A stretch of 39,299 nucleotides of DNA, from contig CALFNN010000057.1 in assembly GCA_937902925.1 (NCBI GenBank), positions 1-39,299 of the forward strand. Reading direction: 5' to 3'. Below are positions 28,162 to 34,085 of this stretch, one piece after another. This DNA is from an uncultured Opitutaceae bacterium (GTDB lineage Bacteria; Verrucomicrobiota; Verrucomicrobiia; Opitutales; Opitutaceae). A model generated the notes under the pieces. It did no database searches. It saw nothing but the letters and a program-made list of their open reading frames with translations, and was not told where the DNA came from. The translations under genes and the position numbers were made by a program. Within the stretch, counting starts at the first letter, position 1. Each line of letters begins with the position of its first letter.

Positions 28162-28569
28162 TTATCGAAGGAGGGCCTTGAAACCCATCTGCTCGAAATG
28201 ATGATCGTGCGTGAGCGCTTCGTCGATCTGGCGCTCGCGCATTACTTTGAGCGAATGGCAATCGACGGCGCTCCACTCCTTGTCGGCGTGCTGACGATAT
28301 AGGGCGGTTGTCGCCTCCAAGTCATTGCGCAGCGCCGGCACGACCTCGACATTCGGGCTGTTGCGAATCGAATCGCAGGTGCGGGCGGCGGTAAGCCGCA
28401 CCGCCGCGCCCTTGTCGGCGAAATAGTTCAGCACCTCCAACAAGACCCAATCAGTGGTGACGAGTCGCAATCCAACCTGTGCGGTCGCCGCTCTGGCTCG
28501 GTCGCGAAGATCGTCTCTGGGATTGATCAGCGCGATCCAGTAGTTCGCATCGGCAAACACCGTCTTCAT
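28162..28569 (-). CDS. PIN-domain ribonuclease, VapC-like toxin
   Basis: The 135-residue product has the PIN fold acidic set: D7 in FADANYWIAL, E45 in LLEVLNYF, D103 in SAVDCHSL and D122 in LTHDHHF. PIN-domain toxins cleave RNA (tRNA, rRNA or mRNA) using Mg2+ held by these residues. Its ATG overlaps the TGA of the upstream 315-residue gene (ATGA at 28566-28569), so the two are translationally coupled, as is normal for antitoxin-toxin pairs. It is the last gene of the minus-strand module starting with the helicase-nuclease. The RNA target is unknown. Confidence 0.88.
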   Translation of the reverse strand: MKTVFADANYWIALINPRDDLRDRARAATAQVGLRLVTTDWVLLEVLNYFADKGAAVRLTAARTCDSIRNSPNVEVVPALRNDLEATTALYRQHADKEWSAVDCHSLKVMRERQIDEALTHDHHFEQMGFKALLR

Positions 28570-29513
28570 TCTTCCGCGACCTTCGGATGGCCGTATAGGT
28601 AGTGGTCGAGATTGCGCGCGCCGTCAGTCGGAACCTTGGCCCACGCTGCCGCCGGCACGTCACGGCTGATCTCCTCAACAATCTCCCAAATGGGTTTCGC
28701 GGTCGGGTCGAACACGGGTTCGCCGCGGGCGACGATTTCGACCTGCGCGCCGGGTTTGATCCGGCGGAGCGAGCCATCGGCGTCGAATTGCCCGGTGCCA
28801 CGCACGCGGAGTTGCAGCGTGCGGTGCTCGTGGAGTGCCTGTGTGACGCGGGCTTCGTGTTCCGGCGAAAAGACGCCCTCGGTCTTGCCGCCGCGTTCGA
28901 GCGAAAGCGTGAATTCGCCGCCACCCGCCGGCCGCAGGCTGGCGGCACGCACCTCGCCGGTCACGTCAACCGCGTCCTCATAGCCATCGCGCACCCGGGC
29001 GAGCAGCACGTCGCGGGTGCGTGGCGTGTAATCAACCGCGCTGCTGCGTCCTGCGCCACGGGACTCCACGCTTTCATCGGAGCGCAGCGTCCGGCCAAAG
29101 TCCTCGAACAGCACCAGGACACTTCGGGGAAAACGTTCTGGGAGCGGCGCGTCGGTGGGGGAGTTTCCGGCCTCGATGCAGTCGTCGATCAAGCCGACGG
29201 CGGCGGCAACGTCGTCCTCGGCGTCGAGACCGAGTTCATCCGCTTCGAACACGGGGTAGGAGCGTTCGATCGGCACGCAGGCGGAGCCTTTCCCCACCTC
29301 GCGAAAGAACAACTGGATGCCATCCTCGAAATACTTCGGCAGACGCTCGCGCTGCGGGTGACGGGCGCGCCAGAGCGCTTTGGCCGTTTCGACGAGCAGC
29401 TTTTTGTAGGCGAGCAGCTCGGGCAGGGTATCGATTTCCAGAAACCCGGCGGCAGCTTCAAATCGCCCGCCGTGGAAACGGAGCGTCGTGAGCGGTTTGA
29501 CAGGCGTGTTCAT
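28566..29513 (-). CDS. large antitoxin-like protein coupled to PIN toxin
   Basis: The 315-residue product is of uncharacterised type. The N-terminal third (TLRFHGGRFEAAAGFLEIDT; then LAYKKLLVETAKALWR and LPKYFEDGIQLFFREV) looks like a folded domain I associate from memory with PIN-neighbour proteins. The middle contains GEVRAASLRPAGGGEFTLSL. The C-terminus (about 250-310) has RIKPGAQVEIVARGEP, IWEIVEEISRDVP, W291, VPTDGARN and DHYLYG. That last tail is like the end of small VapB/DUF104-type antitoxins of about 70 residues. At 315 residues it is several times the usual antitoxin size, so it may have a second role. It follows the helicase-nuclease after 75 bp and overlaps the PIN gene by four bases. 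Confidence 0.75.
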   Translation of the reverse strand: MNTPVKPLTTLRFHGGRFEAAAGFLEIDTLPELLAYKKLLVETAKALWRARHPQRERLPKYFEDGIQLFFREVGKGSACVPIERSYPVFEADELGLDAEDDVAAAVGLIDDCIEAGNSPTDAPLPERFPRSVLVLFEDFGRTLRSDESVESRGAGRSSAVDYTPRTRDVLLARVRDGYEDAVDVTGEVRAASLRPAGGGEFTLSLERGGKTEGVFSPEHEARVTQALHEHRTLQLRVRGTGQFDADGSLRRIKPGAQVEIVARGEPVFDPTAKPIWEIVEEISRDVPAAAWAKVPTDGARNLDHYLYGHPKVAEE

Positions 29514-29588: not shown

Positions 29589-32500
29589 TCACGTGGGCGG
29601 CTGGAGGAAATCGCGGTAGGTGGTGAAGCCTTGGTCGCGGTAGACGATTTCGGGGCTGGAGGGAATGTCGGGCGGACGATTGCCGGGGGAACGGCTCCAG
29701 ACGTTCCAATCTTCGCCGGTGCGGAGGCCGAGGGTGCGAGCGAAGGCGCGGGCTTCGACGAAGGGGCGGAAGATTTTGCGGAAGGGCGCGACGTTGCCGG
29801 TGCCGAGCCAGTCGCCCCAGCCTTGCCAGTGGTCGCGATAGGCGTTGCGCGGCGTGCGGGGAATGTCGGCGGGGAGAGGTGGTTTCTCGGGGCGCTTGCC
29901 TTCGATGTAGGCCTGCCAGCCGGTGGAGCTTTCCAGTTGGAGCGCGTTGGCAAAGGCGCGGGCGGAGTCGAAATCGCGGAAACGGCTCGGGCGCGGTTTG
30001 CGCGGAGCGCGCGGCTTCGCAGGCGTAGTGGGGTCGGATTTTTCGCGCACCGGCTTTTCGGTGCCGAGCCAGTCGCGCCAGCCGGCCCAGCCGCGGTTGG
30101 CGTAGGCATACCACGGAGAGGCGGGAATGTTCTCGGGCTTCGGCGGAAGGTCAGCCGGTTTATCTTTGCAGTATCGCTTCCACTGGCGCTGTCCGGTGAA
30201 TTTTAGGGAGTGGGCGAAAGCGCGGGCTTGGTCGAAGGGCAGCCAATCTGCGCCGAGAAAGTCTTCCCAGCTAGTCCAACCTTTTCCCTTGTAGCTCCGG
30301 TCTGGGTGACTCGGGACATCCACGCGCATTTGTCCAAGTTCAGGCATGAGTCCGTAGCGGAATTTTTGCTGCCACTGCTCCGACGACCGAACGCCGAGAG
30401 TCCTGGCCCACGCGCGAGCTTCCTCGAATGGCACCAGCTTGTAGCGGTGAAATCCTTTGGTTCTGCGGACGGCTTTCTTGCCGGTGCCAAAAAATTCGCC
30501 CCAATCAACCCACCCACGCTTCCGATAAACGCTGTTAACCGCTTTTGGGATGTCCTTAGGCCACTGATTGGTTCGGGACAGCTCGTCGTGTGTCTCCCGC
30601 CATCTGAGCTGCGATTTGATCCGAAGTTTTTCGGCCCAAGCCTGAGCTTCCGTGTAGCTCGCATATGCCAACTTCGCCACGCTCTCCCAACACTTCACTT
30701 CGATCTGCTTCGCGAAGTCCGCGGCGTTCACCCCGAGCGGAGCGATGACGTTGGCGAAGTCGAAATCGACCAAACTGCCGACTTCTGGCGTGCGGCCTTC
30801 GGCGGTGGCGCGGAACCATTCGATGATGCGTTCGTCGTGCGCGGCCAGCGCGCGCAGGACGAAGAGCACAAATTTGAAGGCGCTCGTCGCCGTGACTTCG
30901 TCGAGCGTCGCGCCGTCGGGGACGACAAGCGGGAGCAGGATGTAGCCGCGCGTTTTTCTCGGCGCGAGGCGGAGGGCGCGTCCTGCCGCTTGCACGATCT
31001 CGATGGTGCTGCCTTTCGGGTCGGCGAAGAAGACGCAGTCGATGTCCGGGACGTCGACGCCTTCGGTCAAGCAGCGGGCGTTGGTGATGAGGGAGGGCGT
31101 GTTGGCGAGGAAGGCTTTGATTTCGCGCTGGCGGGCGGCGCTGCCGAGTTTCCCGGAAACGTGGTGGGCGGGGATGGGCGGCTCGACGGTGAGGTGCGCG
31201 TTGAGACGGTTGCAGAGGGTTTGGAAATCGCGCGCGCGGGCGATGCTGCTGTGAAAGGAGACGGTGTGGCGCACGCCGTGGGCGGCGGTGGCGCGTCGCA
31301 ACGCAATGAGGCTGGCGAGGGCGAGCGCGGTGATTTCGTCGGGGCCGTCGTGGCCGAGGTCGAGCCAGCGGTTGGCGGCGACGAGCGCGGCGACGTCGGA
31401 CTGGCGCACGCCGATGGTGAGGATGCGGTAGTCGCAGAGGATGGCGGGCTCGGCGGCGATGGCGGCTTTGAAGGTGAGGAGCGAAAACGTTTCCCCGTAG
31501 AGCGCGGGGTCGTCCATCGACACGATGTCGTCGGAGGTGCCGGCGAAACGACGCTCGGTGGCCGTCATGAAGAGACGGCGCGGGAGCGGAAGGTGGGCGT
31601 CGTCGAGGAGGTGGGCGAAGACGCCAGCGGCCTTGCCGGTGGTTTTGTGGGCTTCGTCGAGGACGGCGAAATCGAAGCCGTAGCCGGCGGTGCGCGCGGC
31701 GGCGGCGAGGACGGGCGAACTTTGGTAGGTGGTGAGAACGACTTGGAGGCCGGGTGTGGCGCTCAGCATCTTGAGGTGCGCGGCGAGGGCGGCGGGCGCG
31801 GTGTCGCAGGGTATACCGAGTTCGTGGACGTGAGCTACGGTCTCAGCGGTGTCAGTGCGCGTGACCTCGGCGTCGCTGCACACGCAAAGCCAGTCGACGC
31901 GGCGGGCGTCGGCGAGGGCTTCGCGCATCCACGTCTCGAGGGTCTGGCGGACGAGGGCGAGGCTGGGGACGGCGATGAGGACGCGGCGGGCGCCGAGCTT
32001 TTGCGCGATCCAGTAGGCGGTGAGACTTTTGCCCGAGCCGCACGGGCTGATGAGTTTGCCGCGCGATTCGTTCTTGTCGCGGTAGTGGGTGAGTGCCTCT
32101 CCGATCGCCTTCAGTTGGTGCGCTTGGGGTGTGCGTGGAAGAGGAGGTGCAGGTGGTGTGGAGGCGGCGAGAGAGGCGCGGAGGGAGGCGAAGAAATCGG
32201 GGCCGAGTTCGCTCCAAGTTTCGGCGGTGAGGTCGCCGAGTTTCGGGAGGTCTTCAAGGATGCCGGGGATGCGCGCGGTCGTCGTGCAGACGAGGGCGAA
32301 GCTGATTTCGCGGCAGACGGTGAACGCGAGCGAGGTGAATGTGGAGAGCTCACGATGGGTAAGCGTCGCGTCAGCGTCGGAGCGATATTTCGCCTGAATC
32401 GCCCAGAATTCGCCGGTGTGAGTGCGGGCGAGGAGGTCGATGCCTTCGTCGCGCGGCGGGAAATTCAGGTGGGCGCGGAGGCCGGCGGGGACTTCGTGGT

Positions 32501-32666
32501 GGAACCAGACGTCGGCGAGTTTCGTGCGGTATTTCGGGTCGACGCGAAGGAAGTGGCGGACGATGTGTTCGAATGCGGTGCCACGTCCGAGGTCGCTGAG
32601 CGTGGCAGCGTGTGCGGTGAAGTCGTCCCAAGATTCGATTCCGGGGAAGAGGGTGGACGGTTCCAT
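29589..32666 (-). CDS. Mrr-like nuclease / DEAH helicase fusion with five C-terminal W-rich repeats
   Basis: The 1025-residue protein has three parts. Residues 25-130 look like an Mrr-type restriction endonuclease fold: F32-E33 in TAFEHIVRHFL, D73 and D77 in RDEGIDLL, and Q91-A-K93 in FWAIQAKY (the QxK variant of PD-(D/E)xK). Residues 180-640 are an SF2 helicase: PCGSGKS (208-214), DEAH (337-340), TAT (368-370) and QAAGRALR (559-566). Residues 667-1021 hold five repeats of about 60 residues. Each has the form F-x-x-A-R-A-[WF]-A ... W ... [IV]-P-x-x-P-x-x-x-Y-x-x-x-G-W-x-x-W-x-D-[WF]-L-G. They start near 671, 747, 811, 899 and 969. They recall the short repeat seen in some phage-type integrases, and sit where related helicases carry HA repeats. 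A DNA-binding role is inferred. Likely a defence or DNA-processing enzyme. Confidence 0.85.
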   Translation of the reverse strand: MEPSTLFPGIESWDDFTAHAATLSDLGRGTAFEHIVRHFLRVDPKYRTKLADVWFHHEVPAGLRAHLNFPPRDEGIDLLARTHTGEFWAIQAKYRSDADATLTHRELSTFTSLAFTVCREISFALVCTTTARIPGILEDLPKLGDLTAETWSELGPDFFASLRASLAASTPPAPPLPRTPQAHQLKAIGEALTHYRDKNESRGKLISPCGSGKSLTAYWIAQKLGARRVLIAVPSLALVRQTLETWMREALADARRVDWLCVCSDAEVTRTDTAETVAHVHELGIPCDTAPAALAAHLKMLSATPGLQVVLTTYQSSPVLAAAARTAGYGFDFAVLDEAHKTTGKAAGVFAHLLDDAHLPLPRRLFMTATERRFAGTSDDIVSMDDPALYGETFSLLTFKAAIAAEPAILCDYRILTIGVRQSDVAALVAANRWLDLGHDGPDEITALALASLIALRRATAAHGVRHTVSFHSSIARARDFQTLCNRLNAHLTVEPPIPAHHVSGKLGSAARQREIKAFLANTPSLITNARCLTEGVDVPDIDCVFFADPKGSTIEIVQAAGRALRLAPRKTRGYILLPLVVPDGATLDEVTATSAFKFVLFVLRALAAHDERIIEWFRATAEGRTPEVGSLVDFDFANVIAPLGVNAADFAKQIEVKCWESVAKLAYASYTEAQAWAEKLRIKSQLRWRETHDELSRTNQWPKDIPKAVNSVYRKRGWVDWGEFFGTGKKAVRRTKGFHRYKLVPFEEARAWARTLGVRSSEQWQQKFRYGLMPELGQMRVDVPSHPDRSYKGKGWTSWEDFLGADWLPFDQARAFAHSLKFTGQRQWKRYCKDKPADLPPKPENIPASPWYAYANRGWAGWRDWLGTEKPVREKSDPTTPAKPRAPRKPRPSRFRDFDSARAFANALQLESSTGWQAYIEGKRPEKPPLPADIPRTPRNAYRDHWQGWGDWLGTGNVAPFRKIFRPFVEARAFARTLGLRTGEDWNVWSRSPGNRPPDIPSSPEIVYRDQGFTTYRDFLQPPT

Positions 32667-32709: not shown

Positions 32710-33948
32710 TCAGGCGCCCCGGAAAAACTTCAGCGTGCGCTGGAGGGAGGAAACGAGGACGTCGATCTCTTCGGGCGTGTTGTAGATGTAGAAACTCGCG
32801 CGCGTCGTGCCGGTCAGGCCGAGCTTGCGCATGAGCGGCTGGTTGCAGTGGTGGCCGCCGCGGAGCGCGATGCCATCCTCGTCGGCGAATGTCACGACGT
32901 CGTGCGCGTGCACGTCGGCGAAGGCGAAGCTCACGACGCCGCTGCGCGGCGCGCCGGGGCGCGGGCCGAGGAGGCGGATGCCGGGAAGCGTCGCGAGTTT
33001 TTCGCAGGCGAGCCCGCCGAGCTCGGCGTCGTGCTGTGCGATCGCGTCGCGACCGACGCCGTCGAGGTAATCGCACGCGACGCCGAGCGCGACGGCGTCG
33101 CCGAAGTTGGGCGTGCCGGCCTCGAAGCGCTCGGGGCTCGGCTTCCAGCGGCTCTCGAAAAACTCGACGTTGGAAATCATGCCGCCGCCGCCCTGATAAG
33201 GCGGCATTGCGTCGAGCAGCGCGCGGCGGCCGTAGAGCGCGCCGATGCCGGTGACGCCGGCCATCTTGTGGCCGGAGAAGGCGTAGAAATCGCAACCGAC
33301 CGCGCGCACGTCGACCGGCAGGTGGCCGATGGACTGCGCGCCGTCGATCACGGTGACGATGCCGCGGGCGCGGGCCTTTGCGCAGAGGTCGGCGACGGGA
33401 TTGATCGTGCCGGTGGTGTTCGAGACGTGGGTGAACGCGAAGACCTTCACCTCGGGCGTGAGAAGCGCGTCGAGTTGCGCGAGGTCGAGCCCGCCCTCGA
33501 CATCGGCGCCGAGGACGGGAAGGTAGCGAAGTTTTGCGCCGGTGCGCGCGGCGACGAGTTGCCACGGCACGAGGTTGGAGTGGTGCTCCATCTCGGTGAG
33601 CAGGATGACGTCGCCGGGCTTGAGGTTGGCGGCGCCCCAGCTCGCGGCGACGAGGTTGATCGATTCGGTGGTGCCGCGGGTGAAGACGATCTCGGCGGGA
33701 TCGGCGGCGTTGACGAATTTCGCGACCCGGCTGCGCGCGCCCTCGTAGGCGTCGGTCGCGCGCATCGAGAGTGCGTGGAGGCCGCGGTGGACGTTGCTGT
33801 TGTCGCGTTCGTAGAAACGCGAGAGCGCGTCGATCACGACCTGCGGCTTTTGCGCGGTGGCGGCGTTGTCGAGATAAACGAGCGGCTTGCCGTGCACCTG
33901 CTGGTGCAGCGTGGGGAAGTCGGAGCGGAGGTCGCGGCCGTTGAACAT
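32710..33948 (-). CDS. sufS: cysteine desulfurase SufS
   Basis: The 412-residue product is a type II PLP-dependent cysteine desulfurase that takes sulfur from cysteine for Fe-S cluster assembly. It begins FPTLHQQVHGKPLVYLDNAAT. H123 (EHHSN), D202 (IDGAQS), the PLP lysine K228 (SGHKMAGVTGIG) and the active-site C368 (LRGGHHCNQPLM) are all present. The short loop around the cysteine fits SufS that needs an activator, here probably SufU encoded nearby. The ATG at 33948 gives the usual N-terminus; 33990 or 34026 would add residues without homology. It is divergent from the sulfatase maturase gene and lies 43 bp upstream of the helicase-nuclease gene. Confidence 0.95.
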   Translation of the reverse strand: MFNGRDLRSDFPTLHQQVHGKPLVYLDNAATAQKPQVVIDALSRFYERDNSNVHRGLHALSMRATDAYEGARSRVAKFVNAADPAEIVFTRGTTESINLVAASWGAANLKPGDVILLTEMEHHSNLVPWQLVAARTGAKLRYLPVLGADVEGGLDLAQLDALLTPEVKVFAFTHVSNTTGTINPVADLCAKARARGIVTVIDGAQSIGHLPVDVRAVGCDFYAFSGHKMAGVTGIGALYGRRALLDAMPPYQGGGGMISNVEFFESRWKPSPERFEAGTPNFGDAVALGVACDYLDGVGRDAIAQHDAELGGLACEKLATLPGIRLLGPRPGAPRSGVVSFAFADVHAHDVVTFADEDGIALRGGHHCNQPLMRKLGLTGTTRASFYIYNTPEEIDVLVSSLQRTLKFFRGA

Positions 33949-34085
33949 GGAAGTGAAGAGCGAACGCCAGGGAGGCAGGGCTGTCACCATCGGAGTTTGC
34001 CCCGGCTTGGCAAACGGCGCGCCCATTTTGCCAGTTGACGCGCAGCGGGCGCGCTCCCGGGGCGATACGCTGGACCGTCGCCGCG

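Follow-up and report, generated by a model that had tools for sequence, protein, structure and literature searches.

In this study, we analysed a 39,299-nucleotide stretch of DNA from an uncultured Opitutaceae bacterium (contig CALFNN010000057.1 of assembly GCA_937902925.1; hereafter the window), and within it a gene on the minus strand (29589..32666) whose 1025-residue product joins an Mrr-family nuclease, a superfamily 2 (SF2) motor and five INT_rpt-type repeats. The protein is probably an ATP-driven restriction-type nuclease built on the nuclease-motor part of Type ISP enzymes (hereafter the chassis), in which an INT_rpt array has replaced the methyltransferase and target recognition domain (TRD) and acts as an exchangeable target reader. 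What the analysis shows is homology of the chassis, conserved active-site residues, the identity of the array, a variable repeat number and the exchange of arrays and of repeat classes.

The open reading frame (ORF) starts with ATG; its minus-strand orientation was not stated in the original prediction. The nuclease module (residues 1-175; 32142..32666, this and all following window features of the gene on the minus strand) contains the Pfam domain Mrr_cat_2 at residues 42-134 (54.6 bits, cut-off 22). The motor follows with a first RecA lobe (ResIII, residues 180-370; 31557..32129; 44.2 bits), which carries the Walker A, DEAH and TAT motifs, and a second RecA lobe (Helicase_C, residues 488-567; 30966..31205; 39.3 bits), all three domains scoring over their cut-offs. 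In an 18-row alignment with fused relatives, D77, Q91 and K93 of the nuclease (the Q-x-K core), the Walker A residues GKS (212-214) and the DEAH box (337-340) are invariant. Both lines of evidence confirm the original prediction, made from the sequence alone, of an Mrr-like QxK nuclease fused to an SF2 helicase. The chassis as a whole (residues 1-665; 30672..32666) is kept across the clade described below and superposes on the Type ISP enzyme LlaBIII.

Residues 14-614 match LlaBIII in a phmmer search (E 8.6e-48), and the motor also matches LlaGI. An AlphaFold2 model of the protein (18-row alignment, mean predicted local distance difference test score (pLDDT) 80.1) has LlaBIII (4xqk_A) as its best PDB match (Foldseek E 1.5e-33), and model residues 10-672 superpose on 4xqk_A in VIA with Z 31.0 and a root-mean-square deviation of 2.9 over 604 aligned residues; the next different family among the structural matches follows at Z 18.5. 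With PADLOC, residues 20-614 match positions 14-643 of the 1646-position Type IIG model (REase_MTase_IIG). According to two reports, a single Type ISP chain contains a nuclease and an SF2 ATPase together with a coupler, a methyltransferase and a recognition domain; these enzymes translocate away from their site and cut upon collision (PMC4666363; PMC4872093), and cleavage by LlaGI and LlaBIII follows translocation between head-to-head sites (PMC4666363). The window protein shares with LlaGI and LlaBIII the Mrr nuclease and SF2 motor within one chain. However, it has a repeat array in place of the coupler, N6-methyltransferase and Type_ISP_C domains (PF22240, PF02384 and PF18135), which were not found in it with Pfam at E up to 1, and the chassis tree puts it in a separate clade. 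All three domains are present in a homologue from the same bacterial family (L022). Since these defining domains are missing, the window protein is not a Type ISP enzyme, though in our reading it works like a Type ISP-style restriction motor. A link to DNA phosphorothioation was considered and rejected: TIGR04095 matches only the helicase core, with 43.7 of 600 bits and far below its cut-off, and the DndA/SspA matches of a neighbouring gene belong to a generic Aminotran_5 cysteine desulfurase.

The C-terminal units follow the pattern F-x-x-A-R-a-[FW]-a ... W ... [IV]-P-x-x-P ... Y ... [GH]-[WF]-x-x-[WY]-x-[DE]-[FW]-[LF]. They span residues 671-728 (30483..30656), 747-807 (30246..30428), 811-868 (30063..30236), 899-956 (29799..29972) and 969-1023 (29598..29762), beginning at the five residues originally proposed. 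A leave-one-out profile built from the other four units scores each unit with 44.9-63.5 bits, and the best of 200 shuffles per unit reached 11.2 bits; because the scores exceed the shuffles so far, the five units are real and not a product of chance. Pfam INT_rpt (PF14882) scores the window protein with 15.4 bits, its weak match lying in the fourth unit (residues 934-955), and the C-terminus alone with 17.0 bits, both below the cut-off of 26.5. Therefore, the assignment of this array to INT_rpt rests on relatives. INT_rpt is over the cut-off in a fused member of the same clade (L148, 53.0 bits), in L032 (39.9 bits), L056 (34.0 bits) and the standalone L019 (28.0 bits), and in two ORFs of L057 (29.3 and 33.2 bits); it was not listed for L018, L025 and L026 when these were scanned with Pfam, nor was it found in the window's own genome at E 0.001, where the window gene is the single locus with the repeat. 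The profile built from the fused arrays also finds, at E 6.2e-51, the same eight units that Pfam recognises as INT_rpt (174.5 bits) in the GmtZ integrase of a Pseudomonas plasmid (L140, named by its record and by NCBIfam), which bears out the integrase-type repeat of the original prediction. GmtZ, the gamma-mobile-trio integrase, thus has the same repeat, but it carries Integrase_2 (PF13009) and no nuclease-helicase; conversely, domain searches found no integrase catalytic domain in the window protein.

The repeat had further been proposed to stand where such helicases often carry HA domains, and this holds: no HA domain (PF03457) was found in the window protein with Pfam and a local HA profile, and a chassis homologue from the same family (L021) has five. 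HA arrays occur on other chassis relatives as well, with eight units in L135, nine, five and ten in L156, L157 and L158, five in L139 and five in the viral L167. Mrr-helicase proteins with HA (such as L021, L135, L156 and L157) resemble the window protein, their similar chassis likewise leading into a tandem array, of 5-10 units, in the same position. However, their HA profile and the INT_rpt profile do not match, and they are distant in the tree on long branches. A common HA and INT_rpt family is not supported (hhalign probability 7%). PF14882 is named as a repeat family of unsolved structure in PMC8078820. A two-unit model (pLDDT 90.5) consists of short helices only and had no match in the PDB (best Foldseek E 3.9; 0 of 64 chains at Z of at least 2). 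In BFVD one match fell below 0.001, a helicase of Bodo saltans virus came up at 0.0031, and the search for solved relatives by sequence gave a best E of 0.072, which we regard as chance. The absent structural match does not establish a new fold.

A scan of genome contigs gave 32 loci. In 19 of them, the repeats share a reading frame with the whole chassis or a part of it; four have the other helicase architecture described below, and nine encode repeats only, as a protein or as a frame, in some cases at the end of a contig. Adding whole-genome searches yielded 19 distinct near-complete fused proteins, the window protein included, with sequences largely from metagenome bins. Their arrays hold 4, 5, 6, 7, 8, 9 or 12 repeats, and this variation in number and sequence removes the objection that a fixed repeat number would have raised against the original prediction. 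The arrays are basic in 18 of 18 cases (isoelectric point 9.1-10.3). In a sparse sampling, 9 of 387 genomes from the same phylum carried repeats, as did 3 of 398 and 1 of 194 genomes from two other phyla (centre genomes counted); a scan of viral contigs with the full alignment gave 23 loci, seven of them with INT_rpt arrays, of which two are identical and two run off their contig. In a chassis tree of 40 rows, the 19 INT_rpt proteins group with L147 in a single clade (support 99/99), whose labels come from Verrucomicrobiota, Planctomycetota, Bacteroidota, Pseudomonadota, Acidobacteriota and Myxococcota. The Type ISP proteins form another clade, which includes one unclassified row, and the two HA rows sit on long branches with unsure placement.

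The main result, which goes further than the original prediction, is the replacement of arrays on a near-constant chassis. Nine pairs with a chassis identity of at least 89% were compared, which include two trios: six pairs have no corresponding repeats, their DNA identity falling where chassis and array meet, one differs in part of the array (repeats 3-4 of 7), one has another repeat class and one has kept the repeats open to comparison. In L033 and L092 (chassis 95.8%), repeats 1, 2, 5, 6 and 7 are 92-98% identical and repeats 3 and 4 only 66-68%, the level of unrelated repeats; DNA identity runs at 83-98%, drops to 48-76% at nt 2461-2820 and returns to 88-100%. Repeats 3-4 of L092 resemble other L033 repeats no more than background, so they were imported and not shuffled from the array's own units. 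L148 has nine repeats against seven in L092 and L033, none of them corresponding, on a chassis 92.3% and 91.7% identical, respectively; the genomes of L092 and L148 belong to one genus (g97), and the DNA identity of these two falls from 93-98% immediately before nt 2038 to 46-68% afterwards. L025 and L030 (chassis 92.2%) likewise lack any repeat correspondence, with the DNA drop starting near nt 2041. For L161/L164, L163/L164 and L161/L163 (chassis 93%, 93% and 89%; L164 is cut by its contig end), the arrays are 38-41% identical with a best repeat match of 0.52. L034 and L147 come from the same family of genomes and share 93.7% of the chassis over 411 residues; past the junction, L147 has seven 74-residue repeats of another kind, for which no Pfam or NCBIfam match was found. 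In L147 (7888-10671), the repeats read W-A-D-A-H ... G-x-W-P ... S-S-L-A-x-L-L-A-E-x-R, and the chassis is split over two frames. L165 and L166 (chassis 97%) have kept their repeats as far as these can be compared: L166 is truncated, and its three repeats match those of L165 at 0.85-0.96. Together, these pairs point to at least five separate array exchanges. For comparison, 21 Type ISP pairs with a chassis identity of 70-100% have 75-96% identity in their coupler-methyltransferase part, which tracks the chassis; the recognition domains lie outside the compared part, and therefore these pairs are a control for the junction and not for TRD turnover. The array behaves as a replaceable cartridge on a near-constant chassis, and the repeat class, too, is exchanged.

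Base composition fits this picture. At fourfold sites, 13 of 19 fused genes have a lower G+C in the array than in the chassis (p<1e-3; the absolute difference averages 0.27), as against 4 of 18 rows of the Type ISP comparison, some of which repeat entries of one gene (mean absolute difference 0.06). The values are 0.88 for the chassis and 0.30 for the array in L033, and 0.93 and 0.56 in L147. Neighbouring ORFs are closer to the chassis value in 11 of the 12 measurable loci among those 13; the neighbours of L042 are not nearer the chassis, and L033 is without a neighbour of useful length. For the window gene as a whole the difference is weak, with values of 0.88 and 0.78 (p=0.002). Its G+C at third codon positions is 0.60 and 0.62 in units 1 and 2, compared with 0.86 in the helicase part, and 0 of 5000 shuffles gave an equally poor 120-codon stretch; units 3, 4 and 5 stand at 0.76, 0.83 and 0.80. 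The simplest reading of the array composition is import from other genomes. Synonymous divergence between L033 and L092 is 0.183 in the chassis, 0.108 in repeats 1-2, 0.088 in repeats 5-7 and 0.632 in the swapped repeats 3-4. By this measure the unswapped repeats are younger than the chassis, and hypermutation of the array as the cause of its flat codon composition was rejected for this pair, its unswapped repeats diverging less than the chassis.

Across 249 repeat units, the ten columns that vary most within arrays include 16, 17, 20, 40, 42 and 43 in each of the two repeat-helicase architectures (the second is described below), and the variability profiles of the two correlate (Spearman 0.87); A4, W19, P34, P38, P41, Y45, G49, W50, W56, L57 and G58 are conserved. 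With columns picked in one architecture and omega measured in the other, omega is 0.27-1.0 across bins at the variable columns (reaching about 1 in the closest pairs, with smaller values in the others) and 0.11-0.16 elsewhere. Positive selection at the variable columns was not retained, omega not rising above 1. Residues at these columns are kept in 57 of 60 cases in orthologous repeats (six pairs), and in 203 of 430 cases in within-array repeats matched for the rest of the unit. Possibly, each unit contributes part of the DNA recognition via the variable positions, three of which (16, 17, 20) lie on one helix and three (40, 42, 43) in the NP-xx-Y turn, so that unit number and order would set the target and bacteria would re-target by importing whole arrays, repeat blocks or another repeat class; we put this forward tentatively. 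If so, the protein would relate to Type ISP enzymes as TAL effectors relate to DNA binders of fixed specificity.

An omega near 1 at the variable columns would also fit the loose constraint expected if the array were a sequence-independent grip on nucleic acid that serves processivity or tethers the substrate, where almost any sufficiently long array works and recombination follows from repetitiveness. The freely varying repeat number (4-12) and the basic arrays agree with such a grip. However, it needs neither whole-array replacement on a near-constant chassis nor an unrelated repeat class, the conserved columns are strongly constrained, and the imported repeats 3-4 of L092 were not drawn from the array's own units; we therefore consider a mere grip rather unlikely. 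Less likely still is an array that recognises a DNA modification or structure, as in Type IV-like restriction, or a foreign protein instead of base sequence. The structural matches include the ATP-dependent restriction enzyme SauUSI (Foldseek E 3.1e-12; VIA Z 16.8), and a chain without methyltransferase is compatible with this alternative, though no more than compatible. On the other hand, INT_rpt in site-specific integrases favours DNA sites, and the conserved aromatic residues occupy invariant and not variable positions, which does not suggest a changing base-flipping pocket.

On the favoured reading of an exchangeable target reader, the basic helical array would dock on a DNA feature, whereupon the SF2 motor would remodel the complex and translocate along double-stranded DNA, and the Mrr domain would cut, probably upon collision or stalling, as LlaGI and LlaBIII do. 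As the chain is without a methyltransferase, the host would be spared because its own genome lacks the target, masks it or carries it in a differently modified form. Target choice would be under selection, which would in turn drive the turnover of arrays through recombination, for the most part where chassis and array meet. DNA binding by the array, translocation, cutting, a role in defence and the means of self-protection are inferences.

Several observations weigh against this reading. The chain has no methyltransferase that would explain self-protection of the host. The composition difference fails p<1e-3 in 6 of 19 fused genes, the window gene among them, and is not seen in fused genes of AT-rich genomes and in viral copies. 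Single cases of exchange might be chimeric assemblies, the sequences being mostly metagenome bins, and the exchange pairs are not all independent because they are grouped in two trios. An omega of at most about 1 at the most variable columns is compatible with relaxed constraint as well as with diversification, and the comparison of orthologues is weak, as the orthologous repeats diverged more recently and the counts are low (3 nonsynonymous changes, 1 synonymous). Finally, in a survey of 19 loci (137 neighbouring ORFs picked by length, false ones included; 25 of 46 and 25 of 97 families listed), neighbours were mostly ordinary genes, and each of the 25 PADLOC families listed was matched by a single ORF.

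Restriction enzymes re-target by swapping a folded recognition domain. If the reading is true, a repeat array that can grow, shrink or be replaced on a constant motor is a different way to re-aim, with clear interest both for understanding how bacteria keep up with mobile DNA and as a potential supply of modular DNA binders. Close natural pairs that combine one chassis with different arrays, such as L092 and L148, make it directly testable whether a change of the array alone alters the DNA attacked. Should the array be non-specific, a cartridge exchange in which one repeat class replaces another would still be unusual. The chassis and the repeat are each already known; a description of their combination or of array exchange was not found in the literature searched, which covered little subscription literature, and within that limit both seem undescribed. 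The proposal of an undescribed enzyme is fair for the combination within the same limit, but the first 614 residues already have a match in PADLOC, the Type IIG model.

A second architecture also places an INT_rpt array on an SF2 helicase: 6-12 N-terminal units are followed by another SF2 helicase and a C-terminal Methyltransf_8 domain. It was recognised with Pfam in L032 (5380-9543) and L056 (5980-10209), and the ORFs of L040 (1148-5311), L046 (2008-6867) and L048 (5968-9690) align to L032 throughout. The hosts are cyanobacteria (Pseudanabaena, Trichocoleus) and an Anaerolineaceae bin (Chloroflexi), and L056 is a 378-kb viral contig. These proteins differ from the window protein in having the array at the opposite end, a helicase unmatched by the chassis, a methyltransferase fold at the C-terminus and no Mrr match.

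A cysteine desulfurase gene of the SufS-like Aminotran_5 type (32710-34026) precedes the gene in the window by 44 bp, on the same strand. On its other side and 75 bp away, an ORF of the same strand (28566-29513) matches the PADLOC candidate PDC-M32A (E 2.1e-42); a 135-residue protein encoded at 28162-28569 on the same strand, overlapping the PDC-M32A gene by 4 bp, appears PIN-like by eye and had no PADLOC match. The position behind the desulfurase, relatives that sit mostly among ordinary genes, and RadD structures that appear among the matches in sequence and structure searches would suit a RadD-like repair or recombination helicase-nuclease with no role against foreign DNA. Such a function is very improbable for a protein that is rare and scattered in the three phyla sampled and that has a restriction enzyme as by far its best structural match; in addition, its two nearest tree relatives and the broken copy of genome G053 sit in other gene neighbourhoods. 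The window gene's neighbours are absent from L016, L017 and L050, and a conserved position behind the desulfurase gene was withdrawn, no match of that gene being found in the broken copy L017. Among the families listed, PADLOC matches are mainly one CBASS-like cyclase with a 4TM effector, one AbiEii and single candidates, Pfam neighbours are mainly metabolic with two phage integrases, and no conserved partner gene was evident. Because the sampled neighbours are mostly ordinary, the defence-island argument is weakened, and gene context, which neither proves nor excludes defence, lends it little support. The original interpretation is thus partly supported: the architecture, the repeat in HA position, the integrase-type repeat and the variable arrays hold, and DNA reading by the repeats, a target set by their order and action against foreign DNA stay at the level of a proposal.

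Further repeat-bearing loci were observed. Relatives of the window's genome encode standalone four-repeat INT_rpt-type proteins (L018 8897-9772 and L019 8828-9826), and in L017 (7987-9859) an internal deletion of about 1.2 kb has split a window-gene relative into two overlapping frames of 413 and 239 residues. Single or partial units lie outside the main frame, 3' of a fused gene, in L016 (1163-1324), L026 (4017-4196), L029 (6200-6289) and L030 (6889-7071). A store of silent cassettes was considered and dropped, since extra repeats within 1.8 kb downstream in 4 of the 29 loci scanned are too few to argue it. In L025 (669-4862), the fused array continues directly into a DUF4238 domain (129 bits), perhaps a recombination joint. 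The viral contig of L057 (3431-8782) carries four successive overlapping ORFs with INT_rpt units; in the first ORF, SF2 helicase domains and a weak match to HA are present as well.

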